DNA of 49,539 nt from a virus: IMG/VR virus record IMGVR_UViG_3300025168_000134, positions 1 through 49,539 of that record; one strand, given 5' to 3'. Positions 10,726 through 49,539 of the stretch are shown here, in pieces; within the stretch, counting starts at the first letter, position 1, and each line of letters begins with the position of its first letter. Made by a program: the position numbers and the translations under genes. The notes beneath the pieces were generated by a model. It saw only the letters and a list, made by a program, of their open reading frames with translations. It was not told the origin of the DNA and did no database searches.

Positions 10726-11844
10726 ATGAATGAGCAAAAAGTAACCTATGGCGACCCATCAAATATTTCTGTATTTGAACAATCATCAAAAAAACCTTTA
10801 ATTTTAGAAAACGGTAAACTACTTTCAAACGAATCATATGCCGAAGACATGTTAAAAGAGTATGACAATTCTTTCAATAATCTACCTAAAAACCTTAAAT
10901 ACGAAATCGGACAAGCTATTGTAGGTACAATTTCACAAATTTCTAAAACCGATATACTACTAGACATTGGCTCAAAAGACTTTGCTTACATTTCATTAGA
11001 AAAGGATAAATTAAATCCAGAATCATATAAAATAGGAGAAGAAGTTGAAGCATCTATCATTGATACTAAAGAATATTTAAAAGCTAGTATTGTAGAATTC
11101 ATAAAAACGAATCTTTACAACGAAATGAAATATTCTGAAAACGAAACGGTTTATGATGCAGAAGTTCTAAGTTTAACAGAAAATGGGTATGTTCTTAGTA
11201 TAGAAGGTGTTCAGGTATTTATGCCAGGTAGTTTAGGTGGAATAAACAAATTATTAGATTTTCAAACATTAATAGGTAAAACAATAAAAGTTATGCCAAT
11301 TAAAAATGAAAATGCATATTCTAAATTTAAAGACCAATTAATTGTTTCACATAGAGCATATTTAGAAACTTTAATTCCAACAGAAATTGAGAAATTAGAA
11401 ATAGGTGCAGTCTATACAGGAACTATAACAGGGACTAAACCGTTTGGTATATTTATAGAATTTAACAATGTATTAACCGGAATGATTCACAAAGATGATT
11501 ACGATGAAGTTCTACTTGAACATATAAATAAAGGAGAAGTTGTTCCCGGAAAAGAAATTGATTTTTATTTAAAGGAAATAGTTACTAACAGAAAAATAAT
11601 TTTATCTAGGTTAGTAGTTGACCCAAACGAAATTGCAAAACCTAAATTTGAAAAAGGAGATGTTGTTGAAGGTAGAGTTGTTAAGACTGTAAAGTATGGT
11701 AGTTTTATTTCTTTAGGTAAGAATGCAACCGGATTGCTTCACGTAAGTAAACTAAAAGATGGTGTGGAATTAAAAAAAGGAGATAGACACAACGTAAAAA
11801 TACTTGACAATAAAGATAACAAATACGTTTTAGAATTAACTTAA
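10726..11844 (+). CDS. Ribosomal protein S1-like RNA-binding protein, four S1 repeats
   Basis: A 372-residue protein. After a ~58-residue N-terminal extension, four S1-type OB units can be traced at about 60-125, 139-210, 226-296 and 310-372. The last two are clearest: GAVYTGTITGTKPFGIFIEF with GMIHKDD, and GDVVEGRVVKTVKYGSFISL with GLLHVSKL. S1 repeats bind single-stranded RNA; bacterial S1 brings mRNA to the 30S subunit, especially mRNAs with weak Shine-Dalgarno sites. The protein is shorter than host S1 (usually five or six repeats). Its genes' leaders lack Shine-Dalgarno sites, so a role in translation of phage mRNA is attractive but inferred. It is bracketed by its own GATTAAATA motif and a terminator, so it is a single-gene transcription unit. 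Confidence 0.85.
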   Translation: MNEQKVTYGDPSNISVFEQSSKKPLILENGKLLSNESYAEDMLKEYDNSFNNLPKNLKYEIGQAIVGTISQISKTDILLDIGSKDFAYISLEKDKLNPESYKIGEEVEASIIDTKEYLKASIVEFIKTNLYNEMKYSENETVYDAEVLSLTENGYVLSIEGVQVFMPGSLGGINKLLDFQTLIGKTIKVMPIKNENAYSKFKDQLIVSHRAYLETLIPTEIEKLEIGAVYTGTITGTKPFGIFIEFNNVLTGMIHKDDYDEVLLEHINKGEVVPGKEIDFYLKEIVTNRKIILSRLVVDPNEIAKPKFEKGDVVEGRVVKTVKYGSFISLGKNATGLLHVSKLKDGVELKKGDRHNVKILDNKDNKYVLELT

Positions 11845-11927: not shown

Positions 11928-13238
11928 ATGAACCAAGAAAGAGATATGGAATTACACGATACTAAAGTTGGTTTAGAGATTGAATTTGTAAGAAAACCTA
12001 CCTTTAATTTAGGAGAAATTAAAAAACAATTTTCAAAACTTTTAAAGGCAAAAATTAATATAGAAAAGGAACACCATTCTGAATTTGTTCCTACCGATAA
12101 TCATTATAAAATAGAACCAGATTTTTCTTTAGGTGACCATTCTGTTGAATTAGTAACAGGACCACTTGATTATAATCATGCTAAAATAGTACTAATAAAA
12201 GTATTGAGGTGGATTAGAGAAACACCTGAAGTAAAAACTACCGATAGATGCGGTGTTCATTTGAATTTGAATTTTCCTGATACTGATTACATACAACAAA
12301 TTGACATTCTTAAATTTATTTTAAATTTTGATGAAGAAGAAGTTTATAGTAGATTTCCTAAAAGAAAGGATAACATATATACAAAATCAATAAAAGAAAT
12401 AGTTCCTTTACATAGTAACTTTGATTTTAAGACAATAAGTACTAATAGAACTAGTTTTGTTTATCCTATTAGCAAGTACTATGGTGTTAATTTTGAAAAG
12501 TTAAAAAGTAATTATTTAGAATTTAGGTATTTAGGTGGTAGAAAATACGAAGAACAACAATCTGATATCTTATATCTTTTAGATTATTTTTTAATGAGTA
12601 TCAAAGAATCTTACGAAAAAGACGATAGTGAAATAAAGGAAAAACTAATTAAATTATTAGAACCAAAGAAAAAAGTATTTTTGGCTGGTCAAAATTATTT
12701 TAATTTCAATAATATATTTAAAAATATAGAATTCAAAGTAGATACTAGAAATGATATCGAAACACTAAAATTGTTTTTTCCTCTTATGTGGAGAGATTTA
12801 TTTCCTATTCTTATTAGAATGAAAGAAGTTAAGTATAATATGAAAGGTATAATAAATTATGATACTGATAATTCTTGTATAGAATTTGCAGGATTTATAA
12901 TTAGAAGAACCTTAATAGAAAATCCAAGAATTCTTTTTTATAATTGTAGGTTATTAAATGTAGTTATGATTCAAACACCTATACACGATTGTGTGATATC
13001 TAATTCAGATTTAGACGGATGTAATACTAGTAATTCTAAATTCAAAGATAGTAGAATAAAAAATGAAGAAAATATCAATGCTGAATTCAAAAATTGTTAT
13101 TTAGATGGCGTAGTTGTAATGGATTCTTACATAGATGATGGTATTTTTAGAAAGGGTTCGTATTCAAATACTGAAATTACTGAAAACACTATCGTAGTTG
13201 ACGAAGATGTTGAAAACCTGGATGAAAAGGAAGATTAA
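11928..13238 (+). CDS. Amidoligase-like enzyme fused to a pentapeptide-repeat domain
   Basis: A 436-residue protein in two parts. Residues 1 to ~300 have the signature order of the amidoligase family with a glutamine-synthetase-like (COOH-NH2 ligase) fold: GLEIEF (E17, E19), IEPDFSL (D65) with SVELVTGPL (E74), CGVHLNLNF (H111), and YLEFRYLGG (E198, R200). Such enzymes join carboxyl and amino groups using ATP. From residue 339 to 423 the sequence falls into 17 consecutive five-residue units with a central hydrophobic residue (NCRLL, NVVMI, DCVIS, NSDLD, GCNTS and so on), the hallmark of a pentapeptide-repeat beta-helix. The substrate is unknown. A virion protein, a host cell-wall peptide or a small metabolite are all possible. 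The acidic C-terminus ends DEKED. It has its own promoter motif and lies among baseplate genes. Confidence 0.75.
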   Translation: MNQERDMELHDTKVGLEIEFVRKPTFNLGEIKKQFSKLLKAKINIEKEHHSEFVPTDNHYKIEPDFSLGDHSVELVTGPLDYNHAKIVLIKVLRWIRETPEVKTTDRCGVHLNLNFPDTDYIQQIDILKFILNFDEEEVYSRFPKRKDNIYTKSIKEIVPLHSNFDFKTISTNRTSFVYPISKYYGVNFEKLKSNYLEFRYLGGRKYEEQQSDILYLLDYFLMSIKESYEKDDSEIKEKLIKLLEPKKKVFLAGQNYFNFNNIFKNIEFKVDTRNDIETLKLFFPLMWRDLFPILIRMKEVKYNMKGIINYDTDNSCIEFAGFIIRRTLIENPRILFYNCRLLNVVMIQTPIHDCVISNSDLDGCNTSNSKFKDSRIKNEENINAEFKNCYLDGVVVMDSYIDDGIFRKGSYSNTEITENTIVVDEDVENLDEKED

Positions 13239-20573: not shown

Positions 20574-20897
20574 ATGAAAAACTTAGAACAATTTGAAAAC
20601 CTTAATGAAAATAAAGAATCTGTTAACGAAGATTTTTCAGTAGATATAGGTGGTGGTGTTGATACATCAAATCCATTTTACGATGAATCTGGTAGACAGT
20701 ATTCAGAAAAATTATCTCCTAAAGCAATGAAAGCACTAAAAGGAACTGAATTAGGTAGAGCAATTCTTGCTTTTGAAGATATAGTAGATGAATATATGGA
20801 TTGGAAACAATCAGCTCCAGGTGGAGAAGAAGATGATTATTTAGATGTAAGAATAAAAGGATTAAAAGATTCAATCAAATATCTTAATAGCATTTAA
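20574..20897 (+). CDS. Candidate internal head protein with capsid-targeting N-terminus
   Basis: A 107-residue protein starting MKNLEQFENLNE. This is a 12-residue version of the MKxLxxF(L/I/V)NE N-terminus seen in at least five other proteins of the window, and it resembles T4 MKTYQEFIAE. Cleavage after LNE (residue 12) or the nearby VNE (residue 19) would fit T4 gp21-type prohead protease rules. The remaining ~90 residues are acidic, with an extended part (GGGVDTSNPFYDE) and a helical C-terminus. A TATTAAATA motif lies upstream and an intrinsic terminator downstream, so it is a single late-type unit. Confidence 0.7.
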   Translation: MKNLEQFENLNENKESVNEDFSVDIGGGVDTSNPFYDESGRQYSEKLSPKAMKALKGTELGRAILAFEDIVDEYMDWKQSAPGGEEDDYLDVRIKGLKDSIKYLNSI

Positions 20898-39222: not shown

Positions 39223-40251
39223 GTGAAGAAGTTTAAAAATATACGCAATCTGTTACCATTCGATACTTTGAATGAGGAAAAGAAAATGTCTTTAGGTAGG
39301 TATTTACAAGGTTTAAGAGATTTAGAAAGTGCGGCAAGGGATGAAAAGAATCCATTAGTTACAAGTAGAGCTACTAAAGAATATTATAATAGAGCTATGC
39401 AAATAGGTAATAAATCGAATCTTTTCGGTAATAAACTCAGGAGAAAGATAAACAAAATTAACAAAGAATTTGCTGTTTTGGGTAGAGGTAAAAAAACAAA
39501 TATAATTGTTGCTGATAATATTGCGCTAATTCTAAAAGAAATTGAAAATCAAGAAAAATTAGGAATTTTTAATGAAAATGAATTTGCGGCAACACTCGGT
39601 TCTGTTAATGGAATGGGTGCTGTTGAAATACCGGAAGTAGGTGGTAAATTAGGTAGTGGTGATGTGTTCGGTGGAACAGCTGATGATGGCGTTTCGGTTC
39701 AAGAACCAGAAAAGACTATTTCAATGAAAAAATTCAAAAAAGTTAAAGAAGATAAAAACATTTCAGAAAAGGAAATTTATATACCATTAAACGATTTCGG
39801 AGACCCAGCTTCTTTAGTACAAATTTTAGCAACTGAATTATCAAAAGGAAATTCTGAAGACTTTTCATCTATCGTACCAGAATTAACTAAATTAGAAGTT
39901 AGTTACAACGGACTAGTAGATATAAAATCTTTAGATACTATTTCAAGAATATTAGATACTGATAAAAAAGTTCTAAAAAAGAAAATGGATAAAATAATAT
40001 CTAAGAATATTGAAGTATTAGAAAATTTACAAGTAGAATTGTTAATAAAAGTAATATCAGACCCAGAATCTTTAAACGAAGGAATAGTAGGTAGAGCATT
40101 GGGAGGTATAGCTGGTTTTGCATTAGGACCAAAAATTGGAAGAGCAATTGCAAGAGTTCTTGGTATAGAAAAAGGACCACTTTTTAATGTTCTTACTTCA
40201 AGAATAGTTAGTGCGGCATTAGCTCAAGAATTGACAAAAAAATTATTTTAA
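39223..40251 (+). CDS. Candidate internal head protein with putative prohead-protease sites
   Basis: A 342-residue protein that uses GTG as start; no in-frame ATG lies close upstream, and AAAGGA precedes it at a Shine-Dalgarno-like position. An LNE site occurs at residues 16-18 (FDTLNE) and a second one at 284-286 (PESLNE). The latter would release a C-terminal 56-residue piece, GIVGRALGGIAGFALGPKIG and onward, which is Gly/Ala-rich, basic and likely membrane-active. In T4, gp21 cuts after (L/I)xE in head-internal proteins. The middle (GKLGSGDVFGG, then MKKFKKVKED) is loosely structured. It heads an operon with a protease and endonuclease VII. A packaged protein is inferred, not shown. Confidence 0.6.
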   Translation: MKKFKNIRNLLPFDTLNEEKKMSLGRYLQGLRDLESAARDEKNPLVTSRATKEYYNRAMQIGNKSNLFGNKLRRKINKINKEFAVLGRGKKTNIIVADNIALILKEIENQEKLGIFNENEFAATLGSVNGMGAVEIPEVGGKLGSGDVFGGTADDGVSVQEPEKTISMKKFKKVKEDKNISEKEIYIPLNDFGDPASLVQILATELSKGNSEDFSSIVPELTKLEVSYNGLVDIKSLDTISRILDTDKKVLKKKMDKIISKNIEVLENLQVELLIKVISDPESLNEGIVGRALGGIAGFALGPKIGRAIARVLGIEKGPLFNVLTSRIVSAALAQELTKKLF

Positions 40252-40253
40252 TT

Positions 40254-40637
40254 ATGAAACCATTAAACGAATTCCTAAATGAATACAGAGACTATGTTGG
40301 GGAAAGAAACATAGAAAGAAAAAAGGAACTTTTGTCTGCTGAAAGAACAATAAATGATAATAAACTTCTTAGTAAAAAACTTAAAGAAAAAGGATATGTT
40401 GTTAGGGTTGATGGCCCTCTTTTTAGCAAAAGTGCAAGTGGTATGGACCGTATATCGGTTATTAACAAAGGAAAAGACATTTTCAGAATATTTCCACCAA
40501 CGGTTCATAGCAAAGAATGGTCTATAATTTTGATGGAGGTAAAAAATGGATATATGTCGTATAAAAGGCAAAAAGACACTTATAATGAAAAAGGATTATC
40601 TTCAGTAATAAACAGACTTATAAACTTATTAGAATAA
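40254..40637 (+). CDS. Candidate internal head protein with MKPLNEFLNE N-terminus
   Basis: A 127-residue protein with a perfect 10-residue capsid-targeting-like start, MKPLNEFLNE, and a predicted cut after E10. The mature part is basic (YRDYVGERNIERKKELL, later KKLKEKGYVVRVDGP) with a small alpha/beta body ending in a Leu-rich helix. No enzyme motif is recognised. The start lies 2 nt after the previous stop. It is followed by a metalloprotease gene whose N-terminus is a looser version of the same motif. Confidence 0.7.
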   Translation: MKPLNEFLNEYRDYVGERNIERKKELLSAERTINDNKLLSKKLKEKGYVVRVDGPLFSKSASGMDRISVINKGKDIFRIFPPTVHSKEWSIILMEVKNGYMSYKRQKDTYNEKGLSSVINRLINLLE

Positions 40638-40647
40638 ATTAATTATA

Positions 40648-41169
40648 ATGCAATACTTATTTGAATTTTTTAAAGAGGATAAAAAGATTAAAAAACACGA
40701 AAAACTTTTAATTGATTCTGTTATTGAATTTATGCAAGATAAATTAAAATTCAAACCTAATAGAATAACAGTAAAGAAAAAGTTTTCTGATACACATATC
40801 GGTGATGTTGTACTTAGTGATGCATCTATAAATAAAGGTAAATTTACATTACATTTTAATCCAAATCAAGGTTATAGAATGATAATAGGTGCATTGATAC
40901 ACGAATTAACACATGTTAAACAAATATCAAATGGTGAACTTAGACCATCCGAAGATTGGAAATCTGTCTTATGGAAAGATGATACAGAACTTTCAGTTAA
41001 AGATTATAAAAAAGCACAAAAAAACTACGATAACTATAAAAACCTTGCTTGGGAAAAGGAAGCATACGATAATCAAAACAATCTAAAAAACGAATACATT
41101 TCTTCTAAGTATTTTAAAAATCTTAAAGGACAAGACGATACTTTAGATTTCATAATTGATAATATATGA
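40648..41169 (+). CDS. Zinc metalloprotease-like protein (HELTH)
   Basis: A 173-residue protein with the zincin core ALIHELTHVKQ (H85, E86, H89) and a likely third ligand in WEKEAY (E136 or E138), the spacing of compact gluzincin-type peptidases. The first ten residues, MQYLFEFFKE, are like the MKxLxxFxNE starts of its neighbours in length, aromatic residue and final Glu, but the cut site FKE is atypical. If packaged, it would be a head-carried protease. If not, it may act in the cell on head or host proteins. It is coupled to endonuclease VII by ATGA. Confidence 0.75.
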   Translation: MQYLFEFFKEDKKIKKHEKLLIDSVIEFMQDKLKFKPNRITVKKKFSDTHIGDVVLSDASINKGKFTLHFNPNQGYRMIIGALIHELTHVKQISNGELRPSEDWKSVLWKDDTELSVKDYKKAQKNYDNYKNLAWEKEAYDNQNNLKNEYISSKYFKNLKGQDDTLDFIIDNI

Positions 41170-41675
41170 AACAACTAAAACAAACAGACTTAAAAATTAT
41201 AAGAGAAAAATGGTACAAGGAACAAAATGGTATTTGTCCTATACTTGGAAACTATTATGATATTTCGGAATTTTGTATAGACCATCAACATAAACTTGTA
41301 AAAGAAGTTGCTGATGAAACAGGGAAAGGATTATGCAGAGGTGCAATTCAATTTCAAGCAAATGCATTAGAAGGAAAAATTACAAATTCATTCAATAGAT
41401 TAGGTTTAAGTAAACACATAGATATGATTACATTTCTTAGAAACCTTGCTGACTATTTAGAAAGTAATAAGATTCATACAGATGAAAAATTGATACACCC
41501 AAATGAAGCACCAAGAAAACCTATTTTAATGAAATCAAGTTACAATAAGTTAGTAAAAGAAATTAATGGTAAACAAAAAGTTCCTGAATTTAAACAAAAG
41601 AAAGGTAACTTAACAGCACCATTAAAAAAACTATTTGAAAAATATAACATAGAACCACAATTTAAAAAGTCATGA
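41166..41675 (+). CDS. 49: Recombination endonuclease VII-like (gp49) lacking most zinc ligands
   Basis: A 169-residue protein that follows T4 endonuclease VII closely: YKEQNGIC, CIDHQHKLV (D39, H40, H42), then QANALEGKITNSFNRLG (N66, E69), and the helical FLRNLADYLESNKIHTDEKL. The active-site Asp, His, Asn and Glu of this His-Me-type nuclease are kept. T4 uses four Cys in two CxxC pairs to bind zinc. Here the first pair is CPIL (one Cys) and the second is QFQA (none). Endonuclease VII resolves branched DNA before packaging. ATGA overlaps link it to both neighbours. Confidence 0.85.
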   Translation: MKQLKQTDLKIIREKWYKEQNGICPILGNYYDISEFCIDHQHKLVKEVADETGKGLCRGAIQFQANALEGKITNSFNRLGLSKHIDMITFLRNLADYLESNKIHTDEKLIHPNEAPRKPILMKSSYNKLVKEINGKQKVPEFKQKKGNLTAPLKKLFEKYNIEPQFKKS

Positions 41676-41920
41676 AAAAACTATTTAGATATATGTTTAG
41701 GTGGCAAATGAGCACACCTATATTAGCAATTATTCCTTTTATACTATCCAAGTATAACATTTCAAATTTCTGGATAACAGCTTTTATTGCTAATGCAATA
41801 GGTTCTTTAATATTTTTTAAAGTAGATGAATATATCTTTTCTAAAGAAATGACAAGATTTCAAAGGTTAAGATTGAAAGTTCTCAAAAGAAAAAAGAAAA
41901 AACTAAAAATCAGGTTTTGA
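41672..41920 (+). CDS. Small two-helix membrane protein
   Basis: An 82-residue protein with two hydrophobic segments (TPILAIIPFILS and ITAFIANAIGSLIFF) and a strongly basic C-terminal tail (RLRLKVLKRKKKKLKIRF). The form fits a small inner-membrane protein of holin type or another membrane modifier, but no family is recognised. It starts inside the stop of the endonuclease gene (ATGA). Its 3' end overlaps by 18 bp the 3' end of the reverse-strand guanylate kinase gene. Confidence 0.7.
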   Translation: MKKLFRYMFRWQMSTPILAIIPFILSKYNISNFWITAFIANAIGSLIFFKVDEYIFSKEMTRFQRLRLKVLKRKKKKLKIRF

Positions 41921-42379
41921 TATTCGCAAATCGTAATCGTTAAAATTTTCAAACATTTCTTTATCGGCTTTTAATCTTCTATCAACTGAATCAGCATCGT
42001 TTCTATTTGATAATCTTATTTTTCGAATTCTTTCTTCAATATCTAAATAAATAATAAACGAATTCTTTCTATCTTTTTTTGCTAATTCTAATATTGCCGG
42101 TGGTGTCATTATGAATATTTCAGCACTATTGAATTCCTTTAAAGATGTTCCATAAAACCATCCTCTGAATTCTTTATATTCGTATAGTTCTTGATTTTTA
42201 ATCATTGAACTAAATTTTTCAGAACTACAATAGTAATAATCTATTCCTTCAATTTCACCAACTCTTGGTTTTCTTGTTGTAAAAGAAACACTTGGATTAA
42301 ATCCTTTCTCTACGAACTTATTTTTAAGATAATCCTTTCCAGAACCACCAGCACCTACGATTATGATTTTTTTGCCCAT
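41903..42379 (-). CDS. gmk: Guanylate kinase-like (deoxy)nucleoside monophosphate kinase
   Basis: A 158-residue protein with the P-loop GAGGSGKD (residues 9-16), the GMP-binding segment SFTTRKPRVGEIEGIDYYYC, and the YKEFRGWFYGTS block of guanylate kinases. These enzymes turn (d)GMP into (d)GDP and would feed phage DNA synthesis. At 158 residues it is shorter than bacterial Gmk (about 200), with a reduced lid and C-terminus. It is the second gene of the only reverse-strand unit and starts within the stop of the 89-aa gene. Confidence 0.85.
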   Translation of the reverse strand: MGKKIIIVGAGGSGKDYLKNKFVEKGFNPSVSFTTRKPRVGEIEGIDYYYCSSEKFSSMIKNQELYEYKEFRGWFYGTSLKEFNSAEIFIMTPPAILELAKKDRKNSFIIYLDIEERIRKIRLSNRNDADSVDRRLKADKEMFENFNDYDLRISKPDF

Positions 42380-42648
42380 TATTGAAAAACTACTTCTATT
42401 TCTAAATCTTTTAGTTTTAATTCAACCATTAAGATTGTTTCTTCTTTATTTACGAAATGACAAATAACTTTGTCTATCTTTACTCTTTCAGGAACAACTA
42501 TGATTTCTTCTAATAGATAATCAGTAACTACTATTTTGTAATCACTACGAACATATACATCTAAATCTTCTCTTTTAAAATTATAGGTATTGACTAAACA
42601 GCGATATGTATCATGTTTTTTTGAATATTGAAAATTATTAAATTGCAT
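42379..42648 (-). CDS. Unrecognised 89-aa protein upstream of guanylate kinase
   Basis: The first gene of the reverse unit, reading away from the non-coding region. It is a small beta-rich protein (YRCLVNTYNFKREDLDVYV, then IVVPERVKIDKVICHFV and ILMVELKLKDLEIEVVF) with no family recognised. Its stop shares a base with the guanylate kinase start. The position suggests early expression with the nucleotide kinase. Confidence 0.65.
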   Translation of the reverse strand: MQFNNFQYSKKHDTYRCLVNTYNFKREDLDVYVRSDYKIVVTDYLLEEIIVVPERVKIDKVICHFVNKEETILMVELKLKDLEIEVVFQ

Positions 42649-45911: not shown

Positions 45912-47450
45912 ATGAAATTTGAATGTACTCACGAAGGTAAGATTTTAACGCTAGTAGATGCTACCGAATTAGAAAGAAAACAACTAAGTTTATCCTTAAC
46001 AAAAAAACTTGAAACTTATAATTTTTTACCTCCAGCGGTAAAGAGAAAATGGAATGGGATTATATCTTATTTTCATAAAGATAAATTCGTTCCTATTGGA
46101 TTATGGAAAGAAATTAAGTACGTAGCTGAAACTTATAAATTTCCTTTAGAAATAACAGGATTAGGTGAAGCACTTTTCTACAAAGATGTTTCCAGAGAAG
46201 AGTTTCAAGAATGGGTTGAAAATAAATTCGAAGGTTCAATTGATACAAAAGGTAAACCTTTTTTTCCTTATGACTATCAAATAAATACAGCATATAAAAT
46301 TTTAACTAATAAAATATGTATAAGTGAACTTACAACAGCTGCAGGTAAATCTTTGATTATATTTATTTGTATTGCTTATTTTCAAGAAAAGGAATTAAGT
46401 AAAAAATTCTTAATGATTGTTCCATCAATTGACCTTGTAATTCAAGCATATGAAAATTTTCACGAATACAATTCTTTTCTAACGGAAGAAAATAAAATTC
46501 CTTTGAACATCAAACAGATTCACGGAGGAGAAAAGAAAGATTTTACGGCATCACAAAATATACATGTTAGTACATTTCAATCACTAGGTAAATTTCAAAA
46601 TTCTTATTTTAAAGCATTTGATACTGTTATTGTTGATGAGTGTCACAGAACAAAATCTAATACTATTAGAGAATGTATAAGTAAATGTGTTAATGTTGAA
46701 AGAAGATTTGGATTAACAGGAACAACACCTAAACAAGGCACACTTGATAGTTTAACACTTCAAGCTTATTTAGGACCGACTGTTATTGAAATTCGTGCAG
46801 AAGAATTGCAAGAAATGGGAACCATTGCTGAGGTAGAAATTGCAATTGTAGAATTCAATTATCCAGAAGAGGTACAAAAAAGATTTGATTTAATTAGAAA
46901 AGAATTGACCGGAGAGGATAAAGGTAAACTACTAAAAATAGAACAAGATTTTGTTATTCAATACAAACCAAGAATTGAAACTATATCTAAAATTATTTCT
47001 AAGGTACAAAAGAATCAATTAGTTTTATTTCATAGACAAGTATATGGTAAGGAATTAAAAAAATACTTAGAAGATAATACTGATAAAGAAGTTTACTTTA
47101 TATATGGTGAAATCAAAAAAGATGATAGGGTAGAAATAAAAAAATTGATGGAATCTGGTACTAATAAAGTTCTAGTAGCAAGTTATGGAACTCTTAGTAC
47201 AGGAGTTAACATTAAAAATATACACAATATTCACTTTACTGAATCTTTCAAATCCGATGTTATAGTTAGACAATCAATAGGAAGAGGATTAAGAACACAT
47301 AAAGATAAAGATAAGTTAAGACTTTATGATTATGTAGATTGTTTAGATTCTAATAAAAAGTCAATGCTAGTAAATCATTCTAGGGTTAGAAAAACTATTT
47401 ACAAAGAACAAGGTTTCAACTATATAATCAAAAAAGTTTCTTTGGGTTAA
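45912..47450 (+). CDS. uvsW: UvsW-like DNA/RNA helicase
   Basis: A 512-residue superfamily 2 helicase, almost the length of T4 UvsW (503). The N-terminal ~115 residues are the UvsW-specific DNA-binding region. Motif I is TTAAGKS (141-147), motif II is DECH (242-245), motif III is TGTTP (269-273), and motif VI is RQSIGRGLR (452-460). UvsW unwinds D-loops and R-loops and drives branch migration, switching the phage from origin-dependent to recombination-dependent replication. It follows the UvsY-like gene and a late-type motif. Confidence 0.9.
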   Translation: MKFECTHEGKILTLVDATELERKQLSLSLTKKLETYNFLPPAVKRKWNGIISYFHKDKFVPIGLWKEIKYVAETYKFPLEITGLGEALFYKDVSREEFQEWVENKFEGSIDTKGKPFFPYDYQINTAYKILTNKICISELTTAAGKSLIIFICIAYFQEKELSKKFLMIVPSIDLVIQAYENFHEYNSFLTEENKIPLNIKQIHGGEKKDFTASQNIHVSTFQSLGKFQNSYFKAFDTVIVDECHRTKSNTIRECISKCVNVERRFGLTGTTPKQGTLDSLTLQAYLGPTVIEIRAEELQEMGTIAEVEIAIVEFNYPEEVQKRFDLIRKELTGEDKGKLLKIEQDFVIQYKPRIETISKIISKVQKNQLVLFHRQVYGKELKKYLEDNTDKEVYFIYGEIKKDDRVEIKKLMESGTNKVLVASYGTLSTGVNIKNIHNIHFTESFKSDVIVRQSIGRGLRTHKDKDKLRLYDYVDCLDSNKKSMLVNHSRVRKTIYKEQGFNYIIKKVSLG

Positions 47451-47457
47451 ATATATA

Positions 47458-47694
47458 ATGAAGCACCTTTGTTATTTTCTGAATGAAAATTTTTCATTAC
47501 AAATGAAAGAATATTTAGATTCTAAATATGGAGATTCCGAATACGAATCTTTAGAAAAAGCAAATGTTATTGCGTTATTAGATGGTATGATACAATTAAG
47601 TGTAACTACTAGAAATAAACCTAAAAATACAAATCCAGATTCCCTACAAGAAATAGGTTCGAGTTGGGTTTCTATTTATAAAAAAATAAAATAG
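47458..47694 (+). CDS. Small candidate head-packaged protein, MKHLCYFLNE start
   Basis: A 78-residue protein starting MKHLCYFLNE, a 10-residue capsid-targeting-like sequence with a predicted cut after E10. The rest is a small, helical, soluble protein (YGDSEYESLEKANVIALLDG, then MIQLSVTTRN) with no recognised family. It starts 7 nt after the uvsW stop and is probably read from the same late transcript. Confidence 0.6.
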   Translation: MKHLCYFLNENFSLQMKEYLDSKYGDSEYESLEKANVIALLDGMIQLSVTTRNKPKNTNPDSLQEIGSSWVSIYKKIK

Positions 47695-47711
47695 GTACTG
47701 CAATTTTGTAA

Positions 47712-47720
47712 GATTAAATA
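47712..47720 (+). promoter_or_regulatory. GATTAAATA, unusually close to a start codon
   Basis: Exact motif but only 4 nt before the ATG at 47725. By T4 geometry transcription would begin inside the gene. It may serve the next gene (47952) or not be active. Confidence 0.3.
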
Positions 47721-47724
47721 TACT

Positions 47725-47943
47725 ATGAAGTCTCTTAATGAATTCGTAAACGAAAAAGCATATTCTATGTCCCAGCAAAGACTTATGGCAGTTGCCTTAC
47801 AAGTTAGAGAAGGCGATAAGAAACTTAGTTCAATTGAATCTATTGAATTTAGTGATAAAGTTAAAGAGTTGGTTGATAGTGATATTACTAACAAAGAACT
47901 TAGAGATTTTGCAGAAACCAAAAAAGATGAATTAAAAAAATAA
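47725..47943 (+). CDS. Small candidate head-packaged protein, DUF3008-like
   Basis: A 72-residue protein starting MKSLNEFVNE, with a predicted cut after E10. The rest (SMSQQRLMAVALQVREGDKK, then VKELVDSDITNKELRDFAET) resembles the small bacterial DUF3008 family, whose members have the order 'kaQQrfmg', a Gly-Asp step, and a final 'kdlkdfA-tK'. The resemblance is judged by eye. The function of that family is unknown. In this setting the protein would be a DUF3008 module carried behind a targeting peptide. Confidence 0.7.
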   Translation: MKSLNEFVNEKAYSMSQQRLMAVALQVREGDKKLSSIESIEFSDKVKELVDSDITNKELRDFAETKKDELKK

Positions 47944-47951
47944 CATTATAT

Positions 47952-48308
47952 ATGAAAAATTTAGATGAATTTCTTAATGAAAGAAAAACTGTTCAAGTTA
48001 AAAGAAAATACAGAGAATATGATTCTGTGCATGTTGGTACAAATGCACCTATTAGAACTAGTATTTTAAATTTCGTAAATGAAAAAGGTTCTTGTACTGA
48101 AATTCAATTGAAAGAATTTATTAGAATTAAGAACGAAGGTACTATTCTTAATCATAAAAAAGGTGACGCAATAGGAAGAACTTCTACTAAATGGATTGAT
48201 AGAAATTCAAGATACTTTACTAAACGAACAAATGAAAGTGGTGAAGTTACTTATAAATTATCTAAATTAGGACAAAAAGTGGTAAGTAGAACTACAATAA
48301 ACGAATAG
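47952..48308 (+). CDS. Candidate head-packaged protein with winged-helix-like body
   Basis: A 118-residue basic protein starting MKNLDEFLNE, with a predicted cut after E10. The body (RTSILNFVNEKGSCTEIQLK, later KLSKLGQKVVSR) has the helix-turn-helix plus hairpin order of a winged-helix DNA-binding domain. It has further NE-ending sites inside (FVNE) and at the very C-terminus (TINE). A basic DNA-binding protein packed with the genome would resemble T4 internal proteins (inference). Confidence 0.7.
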   Translation: MKNLDEFLNERKTVQVKRKYREYDSVHVGTNAPIRTSILNFVNEKGSCTEIQLKEFIRIKNEGTILNHKKGDAIGRTSTKWIDRNSRYFTKRTNESGEVTYKLSKLGQKVVSRTTINE

Positions 48309-48316
48309 ATTAAATA
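48308..48316 (+). promoter_or_regulatory. GATTAAATA candidate late promoter
   Basis: Exact motif, beginning at the last base of the stop codon of the previous gene and ending 22 nt before the ATG at 48339. Confidence 0.6.
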
Positions 48317-48338
48317 AAGAAAGAAAATAAAAAATTAT

Positions 48339-49172
48339 ATGAAAAATTTAACTAAGTTTATAAACGAAGCTGAGCAATCTAAAAAACAAAAAGAATACGA
48401 AGATTTTTTTGAAAAGAAATTAAAGAAATTCGGTGTTGATTCTCCAGCTGAATTGTCTGATGCTGACAAAAAGAAATTCTTTAATGAAATTGATAAAGAA
48501 TGGACTCAAGAACCAACAAACGAAAAGCAAGTTGAAGAGGATTACGATTCTGAAGAAGATGAAGATTCTAAGAAAATGAAAGCTAAGAAAGAATCTTACG
48601 AATCTAAAGACAAAGGAAAAGACAAAGAAGAATTATATTCATCTGAAGACGAAGAAATGGAAGAAGATAGCTATAACGAATCTAGTAAAAAAAAAGTAAA
48701 TGAGGCAAAGAAAATAAAAGAAAAAGACGCTAAAAAAAGATTAGAACAAATTAGAAAATCTTTAAGAAGAGAAGACCTAAGTTATGGTGAAATTGCAGAA
48801 CTTGAAGCACTTTCTGATTTTATCGAAGCTGATGATATCGAATTAAGACAAGCTGCTGGATTACCAGAAGCTGAGTATGATATGGATGGAAACATTCTTG
48901 AACACGAAAAAGGTGAAACTGCAGAAATATCTATTTCTAAAGATGAAATGGAAAAGTTACACAAAGGTGGTAAAGTCGATATCGACAAAAACGGTGTAAT
49001 TTTTAGTCTTATTTTTAAACACAATGAATCAATGCACGAAGCCAAATTGAATGAAGATGGTTATGCAGAAGGTTCTATTAAAGAAGCATTGGCATTATTA
49101 GCAGGTAGTACTAATAAAAGAGACAGGCAAATAATGAAATTACTAAGAAGCGCATTAAAAGATTTGTACTAA
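48339..49172 (+). CDS. Candidate prohead core / internal protein, strongly charged
   Basis: A 277-residue protein starting MKNLTKFINE followed by A, almost a copy of the T4 targeting end MKTYQEFIAEA. Residues ~55-125 are extremely Glu/Asp/Lys-rich (EEDYDSEEDEDSKKMKAKKE), as in scaffold core proteins. Two more possible cut sites lie at KKVNE (about residue 124) and AKLNE (about residue 232). The C-terminal half is an ordered, acidic helical/beta part (ELEALSDFIEADDIELRQAA) and ends in a basic helix (RDRQIMKLLRSALKDLY). A prohead core protein that is cut up during maturation fits best. Its own promoter motif and a terminator flank it. Confidence 0.7.
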   Translation: MKNLTKFINEAEQSKKQKEYEDFFEKKLKKFGVDSPAELSDADKKKFFNEIDKEWTQEPTNEKQVEEDYDSEEDEDSKKMKAKKESYESKDKGKDKEELYSSEDEEMEEDSYNESSKKKVNEAKKIKEKDAKKRLEQIRKSLRREDLSYGEIAELEALSDFIEADDIELRQAAGLPEAEYDMDGNILEHEKGETAEISISKDEMEKLHKGGKVDIDKNGVIFSLIFKHNESMHEAKLNEDGYAEGSIKEALALLAGSTNKRDRQIMKLLRSALKDLY

Positions 49173-49256: not shown

Positions 49257-49539
49257 ATGATTAAATTATTCGAAGGTGGAAAAGCGGTTCCCAATGTAAT
49301 GCCAATTAAAGCAGAGGAAACGATGCCAACATTAAAAGATATAGAAAATAAAATTTTAAATAGGTTTTTAAAACTTAAAGGTAAAGATTGGGCCGCATTA
49401 GGTTCAACAGGGAAAAAACTACCTGGACAAACAAGTGGTGATATTGATATCGCAATTGATACTGGTGCAATCGCAAAGAATCTAAATATTTCTAAAGACG
49501 ATGTTGGTAAAAAGATTTTAGATTTGTTAGATACTGCCT
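49257..49539 (+). CDS. Nucleotidyltransferase-like protein, N-terminal part (3' truncated)
   Basis: The ATG at 49257 opens a frame that runs off the window (94 codons seen). The N-terminus MIKLFEGGKAVPN lacks the full targeting motif of its neighbours. Residues ~45-62 read ALGSTGKKLPGQTSGDIDIA, which holds the nucleotidyltransferase-fold signature: a Gly-Ser step followed by DxD (GDIDIA). This fold transfers nucleotides to RNA, DNA, proteins or small molecules, and the substrate cannot be told from the fragment. It is read from its own promoter motif. Confidence 0.7.
   Translation, partial: MIKLFEGGKAVPNVMPIKAEETMPTLKDIENKILNRFLKLKGKDWAALGSTGKKLPGQTSGDIDIAIDTGAIAKNLNISKDDVGKKILDLLDTA

Follow-up and report, generated by a model that had tools for sequence, protein, structure and literature searches.

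The stretch of DNA analysed here (the window) is a 49,539-nt fragment of a marine bacterial virus (IMG/VR record IMGVR_UViG_3300025168_000134) with genes for tail and baseplate proteins, SSB, a primase, a UvsY-like protein and UvsW; head genes are absent from this fragment, and the protease and capsid genes are likewise missing there. Five of its proteins start with MK-x-L-xx-F-[LIV]-NE (Table 1). Six N-termini, one of them a longer variant, had been pointed out in a preliminary description of the DNA (at 47458, 47725, 47952, 48339, 40254 and 20574), and open reading frame calls on the plus strand confirm all six at these places. The map is extended by the viral contigs L001-L005, whose UvsW proteins are 96-100% identical to that of the window.

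Table 1. Features of the window discussed in the text (positions in nucleotides).
Feature	Position	Strand	Basis
107-aa gene, 12-residue variant tag MKNLEQFENLNE	20574..20897	+	ORF
342-aa protein, GTG start, begins MKKFKNIRNLLPFDTLNE	39223..40251	+	ORF, BLASTP
Tagged putative cargo gene, 127 aa, MKPLNEFLNE	40254..40637	+	ORF
Possible tagged gene, 173 aa, MQYLFEFFKE, HELTH zinc-metalloprotease-like body	40648..41169	+	phrog_16532
UvsW-type helicase, conserved flank of the putative cargo cluster	45912..47450	+	phrog_16 E 3e-70
Tagged putative cargo gene 1, 78 aa, MKHLCYFLNE	47458..47694	+	ORF
Tagged putative cargo gene 2, 72 aa, MKSLNEFVNE, DUF3008-like body	47725..47943	+	Pfam PF11450
Tagged putative cargo gene 3, 118 aa, MKNLDEFLNE, winged-helix body	47952..48308	+	AlphaFold2 + Foldseek
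Tagged putative cargo/core gene 4, 277 aa, MKNLTKFINE, acidic	48339..49172	+	ORF
Next conserved gene past the cluster, incomplete at the window end	49257..49539	+	open ORF; 312 aa full length in G002, G003

The bodies behind these N-termini had been described as unrelated, which holds: the product of 47725 matches PF11450 over residues 12-69 just under the cut-off (E 1.5e-4), that of 47952 was modelled as a winged helix (AlphaFold2 pLDDT 76; best Foldseek E 8e-3, MarR/ArsR-type) and ends in TTINE, 48339 encodes an acidic protein with four [LIVFM]NE sites (residues 10, 50, 122 and 239) and a weak match to phrog_28651, and no family match was obtained for the bodies of 47458 and 40254. Orthologues of 47458 in G001, G002, G003 and L005 carry the tags MKHLCYFLNE, MKGLCYFLNE and MKDLCYFLNE, and homologues of 48339 begin with MKKLTNFINE, MKKITEIINE or MRSLGQIILE; gene 40254 is found in G001 and G003, while in the G002 gene list the two genes that flank it are present without it. 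Weaker cases are 20574, which has a second VNE at residue 19 and occurs only in the window and G001, and 40648 (phrog_16532 with E 1e-16), whose tag satisfies the relaxed rule only. Elsewhere in the window, an amidoligase-like protein and a protein resembling S1-domain repeats are encoded in the tail gene region (11928-13238 and 10726-11844), a kinase-like protein (guanylate-kinase-like by eye) lies on the minus strand at 41903-42379 in an otherwise plus-strand region, and the product of 49257 looks nucleotidyltransferase-like by eye.

According to UvsW, the nearest relatives are uncultured huge phages (LR756500, 462 kb, 40%) and the nearest cultured phage is Tenacibaculum phage PTm1 (31%); a Bacteroidota host is therefore plausible, an inference to which PTm1 alone points. 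A TTAAATA box occurs upstream of window genes 13 times in sense and once in antisense orientation (mononucleotide-shuffled mean 1.8), preceding 4479, 10726, 20574, 45912, 47725, 48339 and others, several of which are tagged; it is a candidate T4-late-like promoter and as such would fit late expression together with structural genes.

Scored over the 46 called window genes, the strict pattern M[KR]xLxxF[LIVF]NE was observed 5 times against 5.2e-5 expected by composition (P~3e-24), which places the shared N-terminus remarked on earlier far beyond chance. A looser rule (hydrophobic at 4, aromatic/Leu at 7, hydrophobic at 8, Glu at 10) was met by 6 of these genes against 0.064 expected, and the relaxed form of the tag followed none of 196 internal Met positions in the window. 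Further proteins starting MKxLxxF[LIV]NE, for which a search had been proposed, were found in G002, G003, G023 and G026. The relatives contain about 10 tagged genes in 73.5 kb (G002), 13-14 in 59 kb (G003), 11 in 66 kb (G023) and about 13 in 172 kb (G026), arranged in several clusters, the contents of which differ even between near-identical phages. The label is not universal, since the strict scan detects a single tag in G012, and the DUF3008 protein of the 77%-identical relative G007 (reverse complement, 49422-50180) begins with the tag-like MKHLNEFLNLINKK without Glu 10; the latter may be read as a natural variant in which the targeting half is retained and the cutting half altered. LR756500 has its own 13-residue form, MK[YF][IL]KxYxxF[LIV]NE, on approximately 8-10 proteins. 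PTm1 was considered as a cultured example of the array and rejected: protease, INE capsid junction and protease-scaffold fusion are present, but a tag array of such form is absent.

A codon-pattern scan of 2.9 million IMG/VR viral contigs for MKx[LF]NEF[LF]NE gave about 90 matches in 62 stretches, which with few exceptions coincide with the first ATG of an open reading frame, whereas a permuted pattern of equal degeneracy gave no match in the viral contigs; in 257 Gb of cellular genomes the original pattern was met only 3 times. When a relaxed N-terminal rule was applied to the matched loci and the relatives, 135 distinct tagged proteins were obtained, which fall into 71 body families (BLASTP E<1e-3) and whose alignment has a consensus confined to the first ten columns. 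Lys 2 is present in 68 of the 71 family representatives, and the hydrophobic residue 4, Phe/Tyr 7, hydrophobic residue 8 and Glu 10 in all of them (partly by selection). Bodies recognised by Pfam include ART-PolyVal, GNAT, ATP-grasp (R2K), HAD, DUF3008, DUF6321 and others, one family being an ADP-ribosyltransferase with E 3e-20. Cyanophage relatives of DUF6321 were discarded, being C-terminal domains of a larger protein. In a tagged protein of L058 (2923-3327, minus strand; orthologues in L038 and L059), HMT and HVT motifs suggest a 2H phosphoesterase, unconfirmed by structure; for the T065 cargo (HMT...HVT) the model reached a pLDDT of 35, no convincing sequence relatives with a solved structure were found, and no function is claimed.

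A possible footprint of cutting is visible directly behind the tag. Residue 11, which played no part in the selection of the tagged set, is Ser, Gly or Ala in 41 of the 71 families (background 18.6%, P=2.7e-13), a preference that is absent from residues 12-18 of these families; in T4, Ala follows the ipII, ipIII and gp23 sites and Ser the gp24 site. In part, this bias could reflect the choice of a linker. Further evidence comes from cargo genes that are split in one genome and fused in another. Window genes 2 and 3 correspond in G002, G003 and L005 to a single 167-residue, singly tagged protein whose second half begins ...KIDE/RKTLQVKRKY (the slash marks the motif end or cut), compared with MKNLDEFLNE/RKTVQVKRKY in the separate window gene and MKSYKSFLNE/RRTIQVKRKY at the start of the winged-helix body in G026; the fusion is kept in G007 with LEE at the junction. 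A 450-residue protein (L031, L047) contains an internal ...MKALNEFLNE/KKSN... or ...IKGLNEFLNE/KKSN..., and the domain behind this internal tag also occurs alone with a tag. Each separate polypeptide therefore has its own tag, and [IL]xE marks the boundary in the fusions: split and fused cargo genes keep the tag or the cut motif exactly at the junction.

No S77 family match was obtained in a search restricted to the window, because the record is a fragment, and the relatives had to be consulted for the head genes. The gp21-like protease that the preliminary description called for is encoded in near-identical relatives (not in the window) as an S77 gene beside those for a Gp23-type capsid protein and a T4-type portal; the order in G002 and G003 is T4 portal, S77 protease, Gp23 capsid protein, with Pfam E values in G002 of 8e-59, 3.6e-13 (PF03420) and 3e-29, respectively. 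Such a protease is present in G002, G003, G023, G026 and others, and of 35 tag-bearing contigs, 8 have a T4 portal, all but one of these also having an S77 match. The G002 protease aligns with the solved T4 gp21 (5jbl_A, E 1e-4), its GELDHP and ISSRAAG segments with GELNHP and ASRG, the His and Ser segments in T4. It is part of a 547-residue fusion in which residues 18-139 match the protease family and 8 [LIVFM]NE sites (0.8 expected) all follow the protease domain; the corresponding G026 fusion contains a single site, and an NE-rich tail is therefore not general. A protease joined to a long coiled-coil-like scaffold was also noted in G002 (reverse complement, 40832-42475), LR756500 (226725-228623) and PTm1 (217778-219547). 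To judge from these sequences, the protease-scaffold fusion with many possible self-cut sites is a trait that the phage group shares.

The capsid protein reads GGELNE/NNFYATPGSVNGMG at the position where T4 gp23 is cut, and the junction of LNE/NN type is present in G002, G003, G012, G023 and G026; PTm1 has GGIINE/SY and LR756500 probably ELYE/NA. The cleavage point LNE/N is inferred from this position and from T4, no measurement being available, and the predicted mature capsid N-terminus right after NE would be NNFYATPGSVNG. On this inferred cleavage point, the putative cut motif at the tag end and that of the group's own capsid protein are the same. In the protein of 39223, 57 residues repeat the cleavage junction of the capsid protein (NENEFAATLGSVNGMGAVEIP; BLASTP to capsid residues 30-86, E 2e-10); the protein also has three [LFI]NE sites that are kept in G007, and its Gly-rich C-terminus follows a conserved [LI]NE/G, the C-terminal part being conserved in LR756500 (462 kb); it is predicted to be a prohead protease substrate.

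Several other readings of the shared N-terminus have to be weighed against this evidence. Chance likeness among short ORFs could be invoked in so far as AT-rich genomes favour Lys, Asn, Glu, Leu and Phe, but it is refuted by the empty permuted control and the excess in the window, the tags being moreover conserved between orthologues, and its probability is negligible. The peptide itself might be inert and reflect a translation-start effect or a 5' cassette spread by recombination, which would agree with the clustering of the tagged genes and the almost identical DNA of some G001 tags (0.92). However, mean DNA identity between the tagged genes of the window is 0.68 over the 30 tag bases compared with 0.42 upstream, near the background, and 0.34 downstream (random 30-mers, measured in the relative G003: 0.30), the synonymous codons of the window tags vary, and the 462-kb LR756500 uses a 13-residue MKYIKxYxxF[LIV]NE with the same ending; neither the residue-11 bias nor the capsid-site match would be explained. 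The tag is conserved as a protein, not as a DNA cassette, and the cassette origin, hardly credible on these grounds, was rejected.

The tag might alternatively direct proteins to another compartment or complex of the infected cell, e.g. a replication factory or the membrane. Tag clusters do adjoin replication and recombination genes (uvsW, uvsX-like), yet the final residues of the tag are the cut motif also present in the capsid protein and the protease, and the T4 and cyanophage proteins with this type of tag are virion proteins, which renders such a signal very unlikely. It is harder to set aside that the motif could be a mere prohead-protease substrate or scaffold-core element, the tagged proteins being structural, degraded or kept in the shell without delivery to the host: the several NE sites of 48339 and 39223 resemble a degraded core protein, and ejection is invisible to sequence analysis. 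Against this, 71 unrelated and patchily distributed bodies, several of them enzymes (ADP-ribosyltransferase, GNAT, ATP-grasp, HAD), are unlike obligatory structural parts, and T4 proteins with this type of tag are injected (PMC12373910); a structural role alone is regarded as unlikely, without being excluded.

The shared N-terminus is, with high probability on the strength of its sequence, a T4-type capsid-targeting propeptide that marks a large set of cargo proteins. In the proposed mechanism, the tag would attach, chiefly through residues 4 and 7, to the scaffold core while the prohead grows, and the labelled proteins would thereby be built into the head; after assembly of the shell, the scaffold-fused gp21-like protease would cut behind the Glu of [LIV]NE in the capsid protein (GGELNE/NN), in every cargo tag and probably in its own scaffold tail. 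Mature cargo would remain in the head and probably be ejected into the bacterium with the DNA. Clusters of cargo genes would change rapidly between conserved neighbours, and acquisition of the label could make cargo of any protein. The modular capsid-cargo reading of the preliminary description gains support from the Ser/Gly/Ala at residue 11, the LNE junction of the capsid protein, the split and fused genes and a similarly tagged cyanophage virion enzyme (see below); packaging, cleavage and ejection in the window phage nevertheless remain inferred in the absence of virion proteomics for this phage or its clade, and roles of the cargo in host take-over or counter-defence are inferred likewise.

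Little is known of which proteins phages inject together with their DNA, and many factors for counter-defence and host take-over are to be found among them; all three T4 internal proteins (IPs), for example, block restriction enzymes (PMC12373910). With the label and the matched protease site, candidates for the injected proteins of uncultured phages can be listed from sequence only, the exchange of cargo between genomes is revealed, and semi-tryptic peptides are directly predicted. There is a somewhat better than even chance that a wide group of marine T4-like phages assembles, by means of a portable ten-residue code, large and quickly exchanged injected sets (each clade having dozens of effector families, with ADP-ribosyltransferases, acetyltransferases and DNA-binding proteins among them), that polyprotein cargoes are cut apart inside the head, and that sequence alone then suffices to tell which proteins an uncultured phage injects. 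In addition, an unexplained cyanophage virion enzyme (NMNAT) would be linked to the T4 targeting mechanism.

Among known systems, the SPN3US/phiKZ protease belongs to a different branch from the S77/gp21-like one found here. The SPN3US/phiKZ ejection proteins (gp245-type protease) are, as proposed here, protease-matured head cargo of a large phage; they differ in the cut motif and in their mostly long propeptides (PMC10052503). Closer is the NMNAT/cytidylyltransferase of cultured T4-like cyanophages, detected by mass spectrometry in virions of S-SCSM1 (PMC9602691) and S-SM1 (T4-GC190, PMC3037559): it shares MK-x-F-xx-FL-x-E followed by Ala or Ser, with MKSFLQFLKE/A in S-SCSM1 and MKKFSAFLTE/A, MKSFSAFLTE/A, MRSFLTFLTE/A and MKSFFQFLFE/S in other cyanophages, and differs in being one widely conserved enzyme, not an array. 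Its cleavage is not reported in the S-SM1 and S-SCSM1 virion data, and this literature (PMC9602691, PMC3037559) does not seem to recognise its N-terminus as a targeting tag. The record of S-SCSM1 gp279, a relative of 47725 with DUF3008 above the cut-off, calls it a virion protein, a label that is only presumed here to rest on mass spectrometry; gp030 (MKTFKQFMSE) of the same phage is tagged, yet not labelled a virion protein.

With the T-even IP hotspot (at least 10 IPs; T4 Ip1-3 inhibit GmrSD type IV restriction enzymes, PMC12373910) the clusters have in common a variable gene set that shares a leader sequence alone; they differ in that no restriction-inhibitor body was recognised, several clusters exist, and the phages are marine with a probable Bacteroidota host. 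The T4 start MKTYQEFIAE, quoted earlier, proved correct for ipII and ipIII (MKTYQEFIAE/A), and mutagenesis in T4 shows residues 4 and 7 to serve targeting, residues 8 and 10 processing (PMC9026906). Shared with T4 IPI, IPII, IPIII and Alt are the length of ten residues, the MK start, the hydrophobic residues at 4 and 8, Phe 7 and Glu 10, the small residue after the cut, the unrelated bodies, the S77 protease and an ADP-ribosyltransferase among the cargoes, functionally alike to Alt. Neither Pfam nor PHROG links a mature body of the window proteins to a named IP family (IPI, IPII or IPIII), and these proteins would therefore be IP-like in working without being IP orthologues. As judged by sequence comparison, the tag group meets every sequence test for the T4 capsid-targeting class, and would both work like it and belong to it. 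Targeting, cutting and injection as well as the anti-restriction function of Ip1-3 are already known in T4 (PMC12373910); new here are the NE form of the site ([LIV]NE consensus), the number and diversity of cargoes (approximately 10-14 tagged genes per contig and 71 body families versus 3 IPs), the protease fused to the scaffold, and the split and fused cargo genes with tags at their fusion and fission junctions.
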